NCBI RefSeq assembly: GCF_014930455.1
Contig: NZ_JAAIYO010000001.1
Span: forward strand, 992,001-1,056,000
Direction of reading: 5' to 3'
Source: Corallococcus soli
GTDB taxonomy: Bacteria; Myxococcota; Myxococcia; Myxococcales; Myxococcaceae
DNA: 64,000 nucleotides
Each line of letters begins with the position of its first letter. Position 1 is the stretch's first letter. Of the stretch, positions 48,168-56,106 are shown piece by piece. The notes beneath the pieces are model-generated. The model did no database searches, was not told the DNA's origin, and saw nothing but the letters and a program-made list of their open reading frames with translations. A program made the position numbers and the translations under genes.

Positions 48168-48875
48168 TTACGGCGCCGGCGCCGGCGCCGTGCAGGCCGC
48201 CGCCAGCCGCACGTCCTTCTTGGCCTCGACGTTGGTGGTCGCGGACTGCGAGTCGCAATCCATCACGCTGGACAGCCCCGTCAGCGGCTCCACCATCAGC
48301 ACGCTGGTGGGGCGGTCGGAGGTGAAGCGGAAGCGGATGGATTGGTCCTTGGGCGCCGCGTCGGCGACTGCCTGGGCCGAGCCAAGCGCCCCCTGCAGGC
48401 AGTCCATCCGGTTGAACGCCGGCCGGCCAGAGCCGGGCAGGAAGCACAGGTTGTTGATGTCCGTGGCGATCATGGAGGCCGGGATGACGATGTCCGGCCC
48501 CGTCTCATCGCAGCAGCCGGGGAAGTCGCGGCACGTCCGGTTCACGCAGGTCGGGCTGGGACAGCTGTCCACGGTCCACTCGTTCGGGTTGTTGAGGTCA
48601 GCCCCGCACTTCAACCGCTCCCAGCGGGCCACGGTGTAGCGCCGGCCGTCCGGCTGTTCGACGTCCGGCTCCACCACGATGCGCACGGGCTGGTTGGTGC
48701 TGATGGACAGCTGGCGCGCCCGCAGGGCCGAGGACCACAGCTCGCGCGTGGCCGAGGTCTCCCGCTGCCGGTCGATGCCGCCCTGCGTTCCCGCCACCGC
48801 CAGGGTGATGAGCACCGCCACCACCGCGACGGCCGTCATCAACTCCAGCAACGTCATGCCCTTCGTGTGCTTCAT
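48168..48875 (-). CDS. fimU: Minor pilin FimU/GspH-like
   Basis: A 235-residue type IV minor pilin. The prepilin site is KG/MTLLELM (Gly6, Met+1, Glu+5), followed by the hydrophobic helix. The body is cysteine-rich (CGADLNN, DSCPSPTCVNRTCRDFPGCC), suggesting several disulfides. The C-terminus ends in alternating Ala-Pro encoded by a GGCGCC triple repeat. FimU caps the priming complex in the pilus machine with PilV, PilW, PilX and PilY1. Its ATG overlaps the pilW stop (ATGA), and it is the last gene of the cluster. The naming follows cluster position and the FimT/GspH-like fold. Confidence 0.8.
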   Translation of the reverse strand: MKHTKGMTLLELMTAVAVVAVLITLAVAGTQGGIDRQRETSATRELWSSALRARQLSISTNQPVRIVVEPDVEQPDGRRYTVARWERLKCGADLNNPNEWTVDSCPSPTCVNRTCRDFPGCCDETGPDIVIPASMIATDINNLCFLPGSGRPAFNRMDCLQGALGSAQAVADAAPKDQSIRFRFTSDRPTSVLMVEPLTGLSSVMDCDSQSATTNVEAKKDVRLAAACTAPAPAP

Positions 48876-50134
48876 GGCGTCACCACCACTTCGTCATCAT
48901 CCTTGGGGGGCGGCCGCAGCAGTCCCACCGCCGCGAAGTTGCGCGAGAGGACGCGGAACGTCAGCCGGCGGCGCTTGTATCCATCCTGCTCGTGCCCCTC
49001 TTCATCCTGTCCGCCCAGGACGGCATCCTGGTTGATGCGGCGGGTGCGGACGACCAGCGTGATCTCCAGCTCGCGGACCCGCTGCCGCATGCGCTTCTGC
49101 AGCTCCTCGTCGGTGATCGGAAGCAGAAGGTCCTGATCGTCCGGCCCCTTGAGGTCGATGCGACAGGGCCCCGAGTTGAAATCCGCCAGCGTGCACTGGG
49201 AGATGTACGGGCGGGCGACGGTATCGTCAGGCCCGCTGGGGTACCAGTTCAGGGCGTTATGTCCGGCCGAAAGGTCGATGATCCCCTCGCGCACGGTCAT
49301 CCGCTCCACGTCGCGGCTCACCACGGACCAGGTCGGTTGACCGGGGGCGCGAGACTCCAGCGTGGGGATGTTGTCCCTCCAGTTCACCCGGTAGGCCGCG
49401 CCACCCAGGCGCAGGGCCAACCAGTTCTCCACGTCCGCCTTCACGCCGGTGGGCTTCCAGAACTCGGCGTCCAAGGCTCCGCTGCATGCGGGGGAGTACG
49501 GGACCTCGAGGTCCGGCCCGTGGACCGTGAGCCTCCCCGGGGTCCCGGCCATCACGCCGCTGACCTTCACGGGGCAGGCCACCTTGTTTCCACCGCTGAC
49601 CAGCACGGCGATGGTCGGCTGCGTGGGGTTCACCAGCTCATTGGAGGGATTCGTGGTCGTGCAGAACGTGCTCAGGTCGCTGGTGCGGTACCTGCCCACG
49701 TCCGGAGCGTCCGCGCACGGGGCCAGGGTGATCATCCCGCTCGTCTCCCCCCAGTAGAGCTGGAGCACGTCCGACGCCAGGGCCGCCGTGGGCGCCGGGG
49801 TGAAGCTCGCGTCCGGGCCCAGGGGCGTTTCATTGCCCGTCAGGTCGGGATTGGGCCAGACGGTGATGGCCGAGCGGTCATCATCGGGAGTGAGGCCGAA
49901 GGAGATGGGCGTGTTGCCCATGCCCGTGCCCGCCCGCGACAGGTCGGTGGTGAGCAGCTCCTTCACCGCCCGGCCCGTGACCTGCGCCATCATCGTCTGC
50001 TCTTCGAAGAGGGCGCGCTTCTGCATCTGCGTGCCCACCATCAGCCCCGTGGCCAACACGATGACCCCCAGGGCGCTGGCGATCATCACTTCCAGGAGCG
50101 TGAAGCCCCGCCGGTGCATGGATGCGGGGCTCAT
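48872..50134 (-). CDS. pilW: Minor pilin PilW-like
   Basis: A 420-residue minor pilin with prepilin site RRG/FTLLEVM (Glu+5 present) and a long C-terminal beta-rich domain (residues about 60-420), as in PilW proteins. The sequence ends with a Pro/Asp-rich tail. It is translationally coupled to pilV (ATGA) and fimU (ATGA). Start ATG 50134 has GAGGA upstream and places the prepilin leader at ten residues. It should sit within the tip/priming complex under PilY1. Confidence 0.82.
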   Translation of the reverse strand: MSPASMHRRGFTLLEVMIASALGVIVLATGLMVGTQMQKRALFEEQTMMAQVTGRAVKELLTTDLSRAGTGMGNTPISFGLTPDDDRSAITVWPNPDLTGNETPLGPDASFTPAPTAALASDVLQLYWGETSGMITLAPCADAPDVGRYRTSDLSTFCTTTNPSNELVNPTQPTIAVLVSGGNKVACPVKVSGVMAGTPGRLTVHGPDLEVPYSPACSGALDAEFWKPTGVKADVENWLALRLGGAAYRVNWRDNIPTLESRAPGQPTWSVVSRDVERMTVREGIIDLSAGHNALNWYPSGPDDTVARPYISQCTLADFNSGPCRIDLKGPDDQDLLLPITDEELQKRMRQRVRELEITLVVRTRRINQDAVLGGQDEEGHEQDGYKRRRLTFRVLSRNFAAVGLLRPPPKDDDEVVVTP

Positions 50135-50640
50135 TGCGCCATCCTCGTCTGGAGGACGACGACCTGCCGGCCGGAACGCACGCCCGGCTCTTCCCAGCTC
50201 ACGGACACCCGCACGTTCAAGAGATTGCCCGCTTCTCCTCCCACCAGCGGACGGTTCACGGGGGGATTGCCCCACTTGCCGCCCTCCGCGGAGATGGGAG
50301 ACATGACGTTGTCCACGTCCACGTCCACCGTGTACTCCCTGGCCAGGACCTTGGGGTCCGTGGGCGGCGTGTCCCGCAGGAGCCCCTCGGACGTCTGGTA
50401 GACCCGGAAGGTCTCGTTGATCCTCTCAGCGCAGTTCGGCAGCCCCTGGCATCCGGCTGTCAGGATGCTCTCCAGGGTCCGCTCCGCGATGATCTGCGCC
50501 TGGTTGGCGGTCAGCGTCCGCCGGTTGGCGAAACTGGTCTGGCTCACCACGGTCATCGCCGCCGACACGCCCAGCAGCATGACGGCCATGGTGGCCATGA
50601 CTTCCAGCAGGGTCACACCCCGTGAGGCACGCTGCATCAT
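50131..50640 (-). CDS. pilV: Minor pilin PilV-like
   Basis: A 169-residue minor pilin with leader MMQRASRG cleaved before VTLLEVM (Glu+5 present) and a hydrophobic helix MAVMLLGVSAAMTVV. It has a cysteine pair around GCQGLPNC. GGGAGG precedes the ATG. The gene overlaps the pilY1 stop and the pilW start by ATGA each, so PilY1, PilV, PilW and FimU are made together. It belongs to the priming complex. Confidence 0.82.
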   Translation of the reverse strand: MMQRASRGVTLLEVMATMAVMLLGVSAAMTVVSQTSFANRRTLTANQAQIIAERTLESILTAGCQGLPNCAERINETFRVYQTSEGLLRDTPPTDPKVLAREYTVDVDVDNVMSPISAEGGKWGNPPVNRPLVGGEAGNLLNVRVSVSWEEPGVRSGRQVVVLQTRMAQ

Positions 50641-53600
50641 CGCGGCAGCCTCCCGTCGGGCAGCGGTTCCCACAGCATGATCTGCGACTTGGGCACGCCG
50701 CTGGCCCCTGCCTTGTTGTTCCAGCTCTGTTTGCCCTTGATCTGCAGCTTCCCCGTCGCCGTGAGCACGAAGAGGTGCTCGTCGTGGACCACCGGCGCGG
50801 AGATGGCGTGGCCTTCCAGTTCGGAGCGGGTCATCGCGCCCGTGAGCTGGGTGGCGATGTACGAGGCGCCGTTCTGCGTGGTGCTCAGGTTGCAGATGTC
50901 CGCGGCCTTGCCCGCGGCGGTCGCCGCGAAGACGCTGTCGGCGCTGAGCGCGACACCGCCCCAGAGCTTCTCGCCCGGCCCCAGCTTCTGGACCCACAGG
51001 GGCTCCAACTGCTGGCACGGCTTGTCACCTTCGGGGTTCGGATCCTCGAACGCCAGCAGGTGGTACTGATACGTGGGCGACTGGGGGTTCGGTTCGTCGT
51101 AGCCGTCCGTGTACTGGTCCGGGTTGTCGCCGGTGCCGAAGTAGAAGCGCACCACCGAGCCGCTCTCCGTCCGCACGAGCTTCACCGCCAGGTTGGAGTA
51201 GAGCTGCTGCAGGTCCAGCTCCGTCTGGTTGGCGCCCGGGTGGTTCTGCAGCGCGGAGGACGCGCGCGCCACCATGCACTTCTGCACCTTGTCGCCCAGC
51301 TTCCGGGTCGTGCTCACGTTCTTGAGGTTGACGCGCCAGACGCTGCCGGAGGTGGTGGGCACGTACATGACGTCGTACGTCCCGTCCTGGTCCAGGTCCA
51401 GCATCGCGGACTCCGCCGCGATGCCCGAGCCCTTCTCGAAGGTGATGACGCCCGCGTACTTGCCACCCGCGCTGGTGCCGTAGTCGAGCGGCTTTCCCGT
51501 CTTCATGTCGAGCAGGAACACCGCGCCCGCGCGCTTGTCGCCCGGCTCGTAGTCGGTGCCCACCGCCGCCACCCAGCGTCGGTCCTGGGCGTTCGCCGAA
51601 CCCCAGGCCGCCCGGACCACGGAGGGCGCATGGCGCGAGCCGATGTTGTCCGGCAACAGCACGGTGTTGTCCGCGTTCACCGCGGCGGTGAAGTCGCTCG
51701 CCATGGTCAGGTCCTTGAAGCTGAACTCCCACAGGGGCAGCGGATACCAGCTGTCCGTGGGGTTGGTGATGTCGAGCGCGTAGACCACCGGCGTGGACTT
51801 GCCCGTCGCGGAGACGAGCACCGTCTTGGCGCCCCGCTGCTTCTGGGCCGTGGTCGCGGGCTTCCAGTCGTACTTGATGCTGGCGTTCCAGTCGCTGCGG
51901 TCACCCAGGTCCACGTTGGCGATGCTGGGTGAGGCGTCCATCTGGGGCCGCGTCAGGGTGCCCGAGTTGCGGAAGCGCACGTACTGGTTGCGGTACTGGC
52001 CCAGCAGCAGCTCGGGCATGTAGGCGAACTTCTCCTCGCCGGAGCCGTACGCGCGGGGAGCCGGAGAGTTCGGGGAGCCACAGCCCGTCGGCTTGAAGAA
52101 CCCGCGCTGCTGGTCCGCTTCGAGGCAGCCGTCATCCAGCGCGTTGCGGAAGTCTCCCGTGTCGAAGGCGTGGAGCACGCCGCTCATCGTGCCCACGTAG
52201 GCCACGGTCTTACGCTCCTCCAGGCCCTCCATGAAGTTCTTGCGGTAGAGGTCCCGCTCGGTCGGCTTCGCGTACTGGTACCAGTTGTCCTTGTAGGGAG
52301 GGACCGCCAGCGCCACGGTGGACAGGTTGATGCCACCCATGGGCCACGGCCGACGCGCGTCGGTGGCCTTGTTCTCGTAGCCGTACAGCCAGTCCACCAG
52401 GAAATCGCGTTCGGAGCCGGCGTTGCAGTTGCCGTCGTAGTTCAGGTCGTAGGGATAGCGCCGGTCGATCTCGCTGTACGTGTTGCAGAGGCTGCCCGGG
52501 AACAGATCGTTGCCCTTGCCCTTGACCTGCTTGTTGTTGCCGTTGCCGTCCGACATGGTGAACAGCTTGCGGTTGAGCGGATCTCCAATCGGCATGGACA
52601 GGGCCATCACGCGGCCCGCTTCCCAGCGCAGGGTCGGATTGGTCAGCTCCGGCTTCTCCGGGTCATAGAGCGACTGCAGGTACAGGCGACCGCGGATGGT
52701 GTAGTCCTTGGCGCCGTCGTACGTGCGGATGCCAGGGAGCGGGAGGCTGCCCGTGGCACCGCTCCAACCCTCACCCCACCTCTGGCCCGGCGTCTCGTTC
52801 ACGCCCCACACGGCCACGTTGCCCAGGGTGCTGGGGCTGGAGCGCGCGTAGGCGCCGGAGCGAACGGCCTGATAGCCGATGTCCACGTCGTCGATGATGG
52901 GACGGCACTGCTCGTTGGGGCTGCTGATGTCCACCTTCCAGCACAGCTGCGAACCCGTCAGGCCCAGCGCCAGGATGTCGATCTCCACTTCCTGGGCGGG
53001 GTACGTCCCGCCCGTGGGGAAGACCACCGGGACCCAGCCCGGCGAGGGGTTGGTCTTGTACTTGCCGTTCTCGTCCAGGACGCGGCAGTCCACCGCGATG
53101 GAATAGGTGATGGTGGGCCTGACGCCGCTCGGCGGCGTGCAGGCTCCCGCGGCTTCCTCGGTCCAGCAGGGCTGCCCGTTCCCCGGGCACGCGGTCACGG
53201 ATTCGCCCGGCTTCTGGACGCGGAGGCTGGAGGCCGGGGGCGGGGTGGCCGTCGATGAGTACGGCGCGACGTCGTCCTGCCGGCGGAAGCGGACCTTGGT
53301 GATGGTGAAGTCCGGACCGAGCCTGTCCCCCGTGTCACCCATGACGTCGGAGGTCACGGTGGTGGACTTGGCGCCACCGCCGTTCTCCTTGTTGATCATG
53401 AACACGATGTCGTTGAAGTCGCGGTCACCGCCGCCGTTGAGGTCCTCGAAGCCGAGGATCCACCGGAAGGGGTCCGTGGTGGGCGCGCCCACGATGACGT
53501 GGGGCATGTAGTTCATGCGGTCCACGGCCTGACTCAGGTTTCCCGGCTCCGTGCCAGGGCGCATGATGGTCACGCCCTCCGGGGGCATGGTCAGGCTGTT

Positions 53601-54932
53601 GTACGCAGGCGAGGCCAGGCGGTCGAGCGTGTCCTGCTCCAGCCAGCCGCAGGCCCGCTTGCCGCCGCTGTTCTCGATGACACAGGCCGTCGCGTCCGTC
53701 GGGGCATTGCAGCTCTCTTCGTAGCTGCAGCCGATGTTGCGCTCCGTCACCTTGTTGTCCGCGGGCGCCTTGAAGTTCTGGTCCAGGTTCCAGGTGGCCT
53801 TGGAGAAGAACACGGAGACGGACGTCTGCAGGTGCAGCAGGCACTTGCCGTCCTCGTTGGGGTCGTTCGAGTAGGGCTTGCGCTTGAGGCAGGGGGCGAC
53901 CGTGTCGTTGTCCGTGTTGTGGCGGACGTCGTAGTAGACGACGGCGAAAAAGACGATTTCCTTGCCACCCTCGACAAGGCCCAGGTTGACCCTGCGGTCC
54001 CCGGAGTTGATGTTCATGTAGTTGTTGTACTCGGGATCCGCGGGTCCGGGGATGGGCAGCTGGAGGCCGCGGAAGTCGTACCGGGAGACGTGATAGTCCG
54101 GGATGCCGTCGTAGGTGTCTTCAACATCCGCGACGGGGCCCAGGCCGCGGGTGACGGTATAATCGCTGTCGTCATCCACGAGCAGGAAGACCATTCTTCC
54201 GATGCCGTTGTAGCCGTTCTCGGGCGCAGCCGGCTCCAGCAGGTTGGGGATGTGCGGGAACAGGCCCTTGTCGGACGAGGTGTCGTTGCTGCTCCCCACC
54301 CAGTCGTTCGCGATGTTGAAGGCGCTGGAGTGCCCGCGGCCCGGGCGTGCGTCCGTGACGTCGGTCTTGTGGACGAAGGTCTTGGCGCATGCGCCCCCCA
54401 TCGCCAGCTCGGGCTCCATGTACGTCTTGCCGCCGGACGTGAAGGTCCGGTTGCAGCGCCTGGGCAACTGGCCGACGTACTTGACGGGCAGGACGGTGTC
54501 GTTGTCCGGCGTCAGGTTGTAGAGGGCCTCGTGCAGGTCGAGGATGCCGTTGTCGTTCTTGTCGACGAGGTTGCCATTGGCATCCGCGTAGCCCTTGAGC
54601 TTCACGTCATCCATGTACATGTAGCCGAGCGAGTGCGAAGCACCGGCGGACTCGTACACGTAGTCGATGGTGACGTTCTGGTCGAACGGGAAGGTGATGT
54701 TCTCCGAGTCCAGCTTCTTGAGGTTGGTGTTGAGCTGGAGGCGGTTGTCGTCGCGCAACACGATGGTGTTGTTGCTGACGGTCAGGCCATCCGGGCCCAA
54801 CTTGAAGGTGCCCTGCTTGTCGTTGGCCAGGTCGTCCTGGCAGAGCAGCTGGGGGCCGGCGACCTGGGCGGTGACGGGCGTGGCGCCCGTCACCAGCAGG
54901 GCCGCGAGGGCGTTCTTGAAAAGCGTCCGCAT
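50637..54932 (-). CDS. pilY1: Pilus tip adhesin PilY1
   Basis: A 1431-residue exported protein with signal MRTLFKNALAALLVTGATPVTA. An N-terminal variable region includes an EF-hand-like loop DKNDNGILDLHE (124-135). A DUF4114-type segment with GGGDRDFNDIVF follows in the middle third. The C-terminal part is the PilY1 beta-propeller with GTMSGVLHAFDTGDFRN, PSIANVDLGDRSDWN and the conserved calcium loop DLDQDGTYD (from D1179). PilY1 sits at the pilus tip, primes assembly with the minor pilins and needs calcium. It starts at ATG 54932, overlapping the tfcP stop (TGATG). The preceding cytochrome gene suggests TfcP-dependent calcium loading, as in M. xanthus PilY1.1. Confidence 0.9.
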   Translation of the reverse strand: MRTLFKNALAALLVTGATPVTAQVAGPQLLCQDDLANDKQGTFKLGPDGLTVSNNTIVLRDDNRLQLNTNLKKLDSENITFPFDQNVTIDYVYESAGASHSLGYMYMDDVKLKGYADANGNLVDKNDNGILDLHEALYNLTPDNDTVLPVKYVGQLPRRCNRTFTSGGKTYMEPELAMGGACAKTFVHKTDVTDARPGRGHSSAFNIANDWVGSSNDTSSDKGLFPHIPNLLEPAAPENGYNGIGRMVFLLVDDDSDYTVTRGLGPVADVEDTYDGIPDYHVSRYDFRGLQLPIPGPADPEYNNYMNINSGDRRVNLGLVEGGKEIVFFAVVYYDVRHNTDNDTVAPCLKRKPYSNDPNEDGKCLLHLQTSVSVFFSKATWNLDQNFKAPADNKVTERNIGCSYEESCNAPTDATACVIENSGGKRACGWLEQDTLDRLASPAYNSLTMPPEGVTIMRPGTEPGNLSQAVDRMNYMPHVIVGAPTTDPFRWILGFEDLNGGGDRDFNDIVFMINKENGGGAKSTTVTSDVMGDTGDRLGPDFTITKVRFRRQDDVAPYSSTATPPPASSLRVQKPGESVTACPGNGQPCWTEEAAGACTPPSGVRPTITYSIAVDCRVLDENGKYKTNPSPGWVPVVFPTGGTYPAQEVEIDILALGLTGSQLCWKVDISSPNEQCRPIIDDVDIGYQAVRSGAYARSSPSTLGNVAVWGVNETPGQRWGEGWSGATGSLPLPGIRTYDGAKDYTIRGRLYLQSLYDPEKPELTNPTLRWEAGRVMALSMPIGDPLNRKLFTMSDGNGNNKQVKGKGNDLFPGSLCNTYSEIDRRYPYDLNYDGNCNAGSERDFLVDWLYGYENKATDARRPWPMGGINLSTVALAVPPYKDNWYQYAKPTERDLYRKNFMEGLEERKTVAYVGTMSGVLHAFDTGDFRNALDDGCLEADQQRGFFKPTGCGSPNSPAPRAYGSGEEKFAYMPELLLGQYRNQYVRFRNSGTLTRPQMDASPSIANVDLGDRSDWNASIKYDWKPATTAQKQRGAKTVLVSATGKSTPVVYALDITNPTDSWYPLPLWEFSFKDLTMASDFTAAVNADNTVLLPDNIGSRHAPSVVRAAWGSANAQDRRWVAAVGTDYEPGDKRAGAVFLLDMKTGKPLDYGTSAGGKYAGVITFEKGSGIAAESAMLDLDQDGTYDVMYVPTTSGSVWRVNLKNVSTTRKLGDKVQKCMVARASSALQNHPGANQTELDLQQLYSNLAVKLVRTESGSVVRFYFGTGDNPDQYTDGYDEPNPQSPTYQYHLLAFEDPNPEGDKPCQQLEPLWVQKLGPGEKLWGGVALSADSVFAATAAGKAADICNLSTTQNGASYIATQLTGAMTRSELEGHAISAPVVHDEHLFVLTATGKLQIKGKQSWNNKAGASGVPKSQIMLWEPLPDGRLPR

Positions 54933-55384
54933 CACTTCTTCCCCTGGTTCGTCGACTGGGACTGCTTCGCCTTCGCTTCGGCTTCCGCCTTCTTGCGCCG
55001 CGTCCGCTCCACCACCTGCTGCTCCCGCTGCTGCTTCAGGAGCACCCGGCGCGGCGGCTCCGCCGGCACCGTCACGGTGGCCAGGAAGCTCATCAGCGAC
55101 TCCAGGTCATCCGGGGCCAGCAGCCGGGTGTCGCACGCCGTCTTGGCGTTGAACCGGTGAGGGGACTGCACCCACGCGTGGATCTGCGTCAGGCTCTTCT
55201 TGCGGACCACCTGGTCCATGGCGGGTGCCACCGGAGTGCGGATGCCCTTGACGGGCTTCGGGGGCCGGGTGGGGGCTTGGGCCTGGTGGCACTGCGTACA
55301 GGCCTTGTTGAAGGCCAGCTCGCCCCGGTCCTGGGCGCTGGCGAGCGCGGGGAGCAGGAGCAACAAGGGGATCAGGCGTTTCAT
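54932..55384 (-). CDS. tfcP: TfcP-like non-canonical cytochrome c
   Basis: A 150-residue exported protein with signal MKRLIPLLLLLPALASA and haem site CTQCH (C29, C32, H33). Instead of a distal methionine, a cysteine, C84 in AKTACDTRLLAPDDLES, sits where the sixth ligand is expected, matching the unusual His/Cys ligation described for M. xanthus TfcP. That protein stabilises PilY1.1 by promoting calcium binding rather than carrying electrons. The tail (115-150) is highly basic and glutamine-rich. The gene lies between pilX and pilY1 and overlaps pilY1, which fits that role. The name is assigned from position and ligand pattern. Confidence 0.82.
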   Translation of the reverse strand: MKRLIPLLLLLPALASAQDRGELAFNKACTQCHQAQAPTRPPKPVKGIRTPVAPAMDQVVRKKSLTQIHAWVQSPHRFNAKTACDTRLLAPDDLESLMSFLATVTVPAEPPRRVLLKQQREQQVVERTRRKKAEAEAKAKQSQSTNQGKK

Positions 55385-55407
55385 GGGGGGCTCGCGGGAA
55401 GGCGGGA

Positions 55408-56106
55408 TTACGGAATGGTGACGACCACGCCCACGGGCGCGGCGACGTCCGTGGGGTTGTCGTAGTTCATGTCCGGGCCGCATCCCTTGGAGATGCACCC
55501 CGGCGTGAAGATGGATTCGGTGTTGGAGTTGGTCACGAGCGCCTGCACGACAGCGCGGGTGGGCCGGCCGTTGGCGTTGGTGACCTCGCCCACGGAGATG
55601 ACCCAGAGCTGGCGGTTGGTGTCGATGCCGAACGCGTCGTCGGTCTCCACGTCGTCCCGCACGAAGACCCGGTAGCGCACGTTCTTCTGCTCCGGATAGT
55701 CCTCGACGCCGGCGTACTCGGAGGGGTCCAGGCTGTCCAGGGTGATGCTGTACTGGTTCCAGCCTTCCGGCCCGTCACCCGGCAGCAGTTCGAACCAGGG
55801 GTATTCGGGGGTGCCCATGCCGGGCAGCTCCACGCGATCCCTGCCCAGGGTGTCCCTGAGCGGGATCTGGCTGTTGAGGGCGTTGTCCATGATGATGCGC
55901 ACCGCCTCGCGTCCCTCCGCGAGGCCCGCCTCGGCGGCGAAGAACGCCTGCTTCTGGCGCCGGGTGTCGGCCTGGCTGTCCGCTTCGCGGCCTACCGTGC
56001 TGTAGCTGAGCATCACCGCCATCGTCACGACGGAGACCACGCCCAACGCGAGCAGGAGCGTGAAGCCTCGCGGCTGGCGGAGGTGGGGGCGGGTGCGCGA
56101 AACCAT
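55408..56106 (-). CDS. pilX: Minor pilin PilX-like, lacking the +5 glutamate
   Basis: A 232-residue minor pilin with leader ending RQPRG and mature N-terminus FTLLLALGVV, so +5 is Leu rather than the usual Glu, as in GspK-type tip pseudopilins. A charged segment (SQADTRRQKQAFFAAEAGLAEGREAV) of PilX character follows. A disulfide-prone CISKGC is near the C-terminus. First gene of the cluster; GGAG is a few bases upstream of the ATG at 56106. It ends 23 bases before the TfcP-like gene. Absence of Glu5 suggests insertion at the top of the priming complex. Confidence 0.82.
   Translation of the reverse strand: MVSRTRPHLRQPRGFTLLLALGVVSVVTMAVMLSYSTVGREADSQADTRRQKQAFFAAEAGLAEGREAVRIIMDNALNSQIPLRDTLGRDRVELPGMGTPEYPWFELLPGDGPEGWNQYSITLDSLDPSEYAGVEDYPEQKNVRYRVFVRDDVETDDAFGIDTNRQLWVISVGEVTNANGRPTRAVVQALVTNSNTESIFTPGCISKGCGPDMNYDNPTDVAAPVGVVVTIP

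Follow-up and report, generated by a model that had tools for sequence, protein, structure and literature searches.

The noncanonical cytochrome c TfcP of Myxococcus xanthus (MXAN_0363), encoded in cluster_1, has demonstrated His/Cys ligation of its heme and has been shown to keep PilY1.1 stable at low calcium (Herfurth et al. 2022, PMC8833165). It is a periplasmic protein that helps PilY1.1 to bind calcium when calcium is low, by which PilY1.1 and then the minor pilins are stabilised; a role in electron transport is unlikely, and calcium alone bypasses TfcP (PMC8833165). TfcP itself is stable only if it binds heme and has the Cys ligand, the exchange of Cys91 for His or Met lowers the TfcP level and abolishes function, and the charged C-terminal extension, said to be present in 'most' homologues, is also needed for the stability of the protein (Herfurth et al. 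2022, PMC8833165). The same work reported that tfcP and the distal Cys are conserved in other Myxococcales and that the only minor-pilin/PilY1 cluster of Corallococcus coralloides encodes a TfcP orthologue (Herfurth et al. 2022, Discussion, PMC8833165). More recently, tfcP was described as conserved in clusters of the pilY1.1 type and in no others, and mainly vertical inheritance was favoured for both PilY1.1 and PilY1.2 (Mahanta et al. 2026, PMC13190605); neither Corallococcus nor Citreicoccus is mentioned in the main text of that paper.

In this study, we analysed a 64,000-nt stretch of the 9.44 Mb genome of Corallococcus soli (G000:C1:992001-1056000; hereafter, the window). It contains, between positions 56106 and 48168 on the minus strand, a pilus-tip operon with the gene order pilX, tfcP, pilY1, pilV, pilW and fimU (Table 1). 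The genes and coordinates given in a preliminary description of this DNA proved exact to the base. That description also took the six genes for one overlapping unit: they are indeed adjacent and 1 or 4 nt are shared at four of the five junctions, but a gap of 23 nt lies between pilX and the cytochrome gene, which thus do not overlap. The PilY1 closest to the window copy is that of C. praedator (86% identical). No match to PF05567 (T4P_PilY1) was obtained in the genome of the window, a result that is uninformative as the control genomes gave none either, and pilX had no Pfam match at 0.01.

Table 1. Positions in the window of the genes of the pilus-tip operon and of motifs in their products
Feature	Position	Strand	Basis
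pilX, minor pilin, 232 aa	55408..56106	-	first gene of the operon; ORF; same-position homologues in all related clusters
tfcP, noncanonical cytochrome c, 150 aa	54932..55384	-	ATG at 55384; stop shares 1 nt with the pilY1 ATG; PF00034 and AF2 fold
Heme attachment motif C29-T-Q-C32-H33 of TfcP	55286..55300	-	sequence; invariant in the 47-sequence alignment
Cys84 of TfcP, candidate distal heme ligand (Met80 position)	55133..55135	-	invariant; aligned to horse cytochrome c
pilY1, PilY1.1-type tip adhesin, 1431 aa	50637..54932	-	DUF4114 PF13448, E=1.1e-8, residues 488-514; tree placement
EF-hand-like calcium motif D1179-L-D-Q-D-G-T-Y-D1187 in the C-terminal part of PilY1	51372..51398	-	sequence
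pilV, minor pilin, 169 aa	50131..50640	-	N_methyl PF07963; weak TIGR02523 PilV
pilW, minor pilin, 420 aa	48872..50134	-	N_methyl PF07963; position and homology
fimU, minor pilin, 235 aa	48168..48875	-	N_methyl PF07963; weak GspH/FimT-like matches

The cytochrome of the window contains a single CxxCH motif and, as had been noted before, lacks a distal Met: besides H33, its only Met and His residues are M1, M56, H69, H76 and M98. An alignment of 47 sequences revealed only seven invariant columns (C29, C32, H33, W71, P75, C84 and L101), while M56, H69, H76 and M98 vary and no conserved Met or His is found near the distal Cys. C84, previously proposed as the candidate sixth ligand, falls on Met80 of horse cytochrome c in a PDB-profile alignment, and its invariance rules out that it is a chance cysteine. 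The protein matches Cytochrom_C (PF00034, E=5e-4), as do 42 of the 47 aligned relatives, and an AF2 model built from these relatives (mean pLDDT 82) comprises a cytochrome c domain followed by a long C-terminal helix (residues 112-146). Each of the 50 best PDB fold matches listed was either a c-type cytochrome or a c-heme subunit of an oxidase or related complex, although these matches are modest, the best having E = 8e-3. The helix corresponds to a charged C-terminal extension (43 aa, 42% charged) that follows a Pro-rich linker, and the N-terminus (MKRLIPLLLLLPALASAQD) looks, from sequence alone, like a type I signal peptide. The preliminary assignment of the cytochrome to the TfcP type thus stands on the CxxCH motif, the distal Cys, the fold and the place of the gene between pilX and pilY1.

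Homologues were sought in 145 genomes of the order and then, with a TfcP profile, in 195 genomes of the phylum. TfcP is very divergent family-wide (the window protein shares only about 40% identity with those of Myxococcus), and PilY1 was used as the query in the search for related loci. Proteins scoring over 80 bits were taken as true TfcP homologues, well separated from the following matches (about 53 bits), and in both searches they were confined to the family of the window. The set analysed comprises 56 intact tfcP copies from 49 genomes in eight genus-level groups of this one family. The distal Cys, whose absence from homologues would have spoken against a ligand role, is present in all 56, mostly within TxCDTR, and so is CxxCH. 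Two copies (L079/L080, in G116 and G117) have the exact M. xanthus geometry (C31xxCH, C91, 153 aa). A charged C-terminal extension was found in 47 of the 52 copies measured, and the five copies lacking it (L043, L044, L050, L051 and L053, from groups g3 and g6) form one clade. In the phylum, the strongest match to the profile outside TfcP, at about 50 bits, was the third heme domain of a tetraheme cytochrome encoded in the same genomes (e.g., L204, G059:C1:5780000-5786000), which differs from TfcP in having four CxxCH motifs and a Met (PDTEMPTF) where TfcP has the Cys (KTACDTRL). A canonical Met-ligated cytochrome c, here called cytc2, is encoded 0.6 kb before pilX (57017-56691, minus strand), with a small secreted-looking protein, MKTF, encoded between it and the operon (56628-56314, minus strand). 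A derivation of TfcP from this neighbour is unsupported, since cytc2 reaches only about 29-34 bits in profile scoring versus about 50 for the third tetraheme domain.

The association of tfcP with one type of PilY1 is strict. The gene lies directly downstream of pilX in 56 of 56 cases, and pilY1 follows it wherever the contig continues. The family comprises 96 genomes, 56 of which carry a PilY1 of this broad kind, 49 of them with TfcP. All 49 TfcP genomes also carry the PilY1.1 type, and the genomes with only the PilY1.2 type (G094, G104, G109 and G114) have no intact tfcP, in agreement with the earlier suggestion that the accessory factor travels with this PilY1 type; in G104 a tfcP fragment remains, with pilin genes absent around it. 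Two further genomes (G125 and G126) have a more distant PilY1 type, and in G123 a PilY1.1-like gene is cut by the contig end, so that tfcP status is unreadable there. A PilY1-like gene without tfcP occurs in G108:C56 (L206), but this gene contains an internal stop and is not surrounded by pilin genes. In a PilY1 tree, the window PilY1 groups with the tfcP-linked PilY1 proteins, apart from PilY1.2 (SH-aLRT 100); this is a gene tree alone, made with a quick method and rooted on Citreicoccus PilY1.2, in which G071 and L058 have long branches. In a mirror-tree comparison, the pairwise distances of TfcP correlate with those of PilY1 (r=0.90, 52 pairs, with 0 of 2000 permutations as high), a value that partly reflects shared species history and gene adjacency and is supportive rather than proof of contact. 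Among 53 readable calcium loops of the linked PilY1 proteins, 45 have the form DxD/NxDGxxD, seven end in E and one (L058, G090:C314) is broken by a seven-residue insertion. A loss of calcium binding in the PilY1 proteins of second clusters was considered and rejected, as the alignment shows only a D-to-E change at the last loop position. We also observed stand-alone proteins of about 620-740 aa that resemble the N-terminal half of PilY1.1 (DUF4114 region) and lack the C-terminal propeller (L203, G059:C1:872000-887000); similar ones occur in G058, G068, G071 and G105, sometimes three in a row, and are possibly free adhesins.

Given the conservation of the ligand position, the neighbourhood, the co-divergence and the co-occurrence with the PilY1.1 type, all of which were observed here together with the gene order and the fold, the cytochrome is an orthologous-type TfcP, and we consider it highly probable that it serves as the TfcP of a minor-pilin operon of the PilY1.1 type and acts as a calcium-loading helper of PilY1. 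The window appears to encode all the sequence features needed for an action of the M. xanthus type. By analogy with M. xanthus, TfcP would most likely be exported to the periplasm and carry one heme attached to C29 and C32, with H33 and C84 as the predicted axial ligands; the resulting heme would be of low potential, inert in electron transfer and serve mainly to hold the fold of the protein. TfcP may then associate transiently with the PilY1 encoded next to it and, when calcium is scarce, promote calcium loading of the EF-hand loop D1179-D1187 of this PilY1. The loaded PilY1 would be stable, stabilise the four minor pilins, and prime and tip the type IVa pilus; a pilus phenotype like that of M. 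xanthus is likewise predicted for Corallococcus. The mechanism may differ between members of the family, because the extension is missing in five homologues and the calcium loop of L058 is broken.

His/Cys hemes usually have a very low potential and are common among heme sensors, and both properties bear on what else the protein might do. It could be a working redox protein, for example as an electron donor or acceptor in disulfide formation in the Cys-rich PilY1 or in a periplasmic electron chain, with the Cys only tuning its potential; the real cytochrome c fold, the intact heme motif and the many conserved cysteines of PilY1 would suit such a role, which nevertheless seems unlikely to us given that the distal Met is replaced in all 56 copies, that hemes so ligated are mostly of very low potential, and that M. 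xanthus TfcP is unlikely to act in electron transport and is bypassed by calcium alone (Herfurth et al. 2022, PMC8833165). Rather than being a constitutive calcium helper, the cytochrome could also sense redox state, NO, CO or heme availability and gate the assembly of PilY1, with a signal displacing Cys84. The absolute conservation of the distal ligand and the frequency of His/Cys ligation among sensors agree with this, but the operon of the window encodes neither a sensor domain nor a regulator, and the low level and lost function of the M. xanthus Cys91-to-His/Met variants fit a structural role, which makes sensing quite improbable. That an ordinary cytochrome is hitch-hiking in a pilin operon without any functional link is strongly disfavoured and hardly credible, for although a canonical cytochrome, cytc2, does lie close to pilX and is conserved regardless of pilin clusters, tfcP remains in the cluster at every address and is absent without the PilY1.1 type, G104 retaining only a fragment and no pilin genes.

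The chromosomal position of the operon differs between genera. The order in Corallococcus is UP57061 - cytc2 - MKTF - [pilX-tfcP-pilY1.1-pilV-pilW-fimU] - mfd, and in the same neighbourhood Myxococcus has UP57061 - [pilX-pilY1.2-pilV-pilW-fimU] - cytc2 - MKTF - mfd, without tfcP. The Myxococcus tfcP cluster lies instead between lspA-lspA and ileS, the address of M. xanthus cluster_1; the window cluster is beside the Myxococcus cluster_2 site, and nuclease-like and xanthine-dehydrogenase-like genes occupy the lspA/ileS site in its genome. In Citreicoccus (L074, L075 and L216), the cytc2-MKTF pair is flanked by a PilY1.2-type cluster on one side and a PilY1.1-type cluster on the other; this layout may be ancestral or have arisen by double insertion. 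Neither type is present at the cytc2-MKTF site in g3 (G043), g6 (G074) and one Myxococcus (G101). Pilin clusters thus occur on either flank of the cytc2-MKTF pair, and cytc2 is kept widely in the family whether or not they are present.

In four Corallococcus genomes there is a second tfcP cluster. Judged by flanking genes, these second clusters are spread over no fewer than three other addresses, and their PilY1 proteins group as a single clade, separate from the Corallococcus, Citreicoccus and Myxococcus clusters. C. terminator (G071, L078) has a strongly divergent block (PilY1 about 56%, TfcP about 40%), whereas both of its flanks are 90-97% identical to the window; the whole minor-pilin/tfcP/pilY1 block has therefore likely been replaced. 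In one Myxococcus (G120; L036, G120:C1:1032000-1051900), two complete clusters with tfcP lie in tandem, the second of them extending past the stretch examined. A Myxococcus-like tfcP cluster was also seen in the record BNCN01000008.1 (L128), titled Comamonas sp. KCTC 72670; the title is probably wrong. In view of these several addresses, it seems that cytochrome, PilY1 and minor pilins change place together, as one cassette. We somewhat favour the view that the tfcP-pilY1.1-minor-pilin operon is a relocatable cassette, with cytochrome, adhesin and four pilins moving, being duplicated or being replaced as a block in the Myxococcaceae, and that the Corallococcus operon is a separate placement and not a direct positional descendant of cluster_1; the partners would then have remained linked because the adhesin needs a heme-protein helper of its own. 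Part of the address pattern can be accounted for without transfer, by duplication and differential loss.

The conclusion that Corallococcus has a TfcP is correct but largely known, and the suggestion that the factor is not species-specific, made from the window alone, holds and was already published (PMC8833165; PMC13190605). What this study adds is the size of the survey, the pattern of loss and retention, a clade that lacks the extension, calcium loops with a D-to-E change, and the varying address of the cluster. We found no description of these changing addresses in the literature, although the supplementary figures of the Herfurth and Mahanta papers may show part of them. The published case of a cytochrome c that helps in calcium binding is thereby extended to a quantified family-wide pattern, in which the Cys is invariant, the neighbourhood obligate and the co-occurrence with a single PilY1 type strict. 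The behaviour of the cassette provides natural experiments, namely genomes with two sets, a swapped set, no C-terminal helix or an altered calcium loop, and such variants can be used to find which part of TfcP acts on PilY1.

Compared with M. xanthus, the TfcP of the window has the same CxxCH motif, a distal Cys at the Met position and a cytochrome c domain with a charged C-terminal helix, and, as in cluster_1, its gene lies between pilX and pilY1.1 and is coupled to pilY1, whose product has an EF-hand and DUF4114. It differs in sequence (about 40% identity) and in the spacing from His to Cys (51 versus 56 residues), its operon is at another address, and its ligation and calcium effect are predicted from homology. 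The likeness to C. coralloides, drawn from the published description, is one of the same genus and the same kind of cluster, although four other Corallococcus genomes have a second tfcP cluster where C. coralloides is reported to have a single one. The window PilY1 conforms to the PilY1.1 class of Mahanta et al. 2026 (PMC13190605) in being Cys-rich, in having DUF4114 and in having tfcP immediately upstream of its gene; in contrast to the mainly vertical inheritance favoured there for PilY1.1, the addresses recorded here indicate that relocation of the whole cluster has occurred as well.
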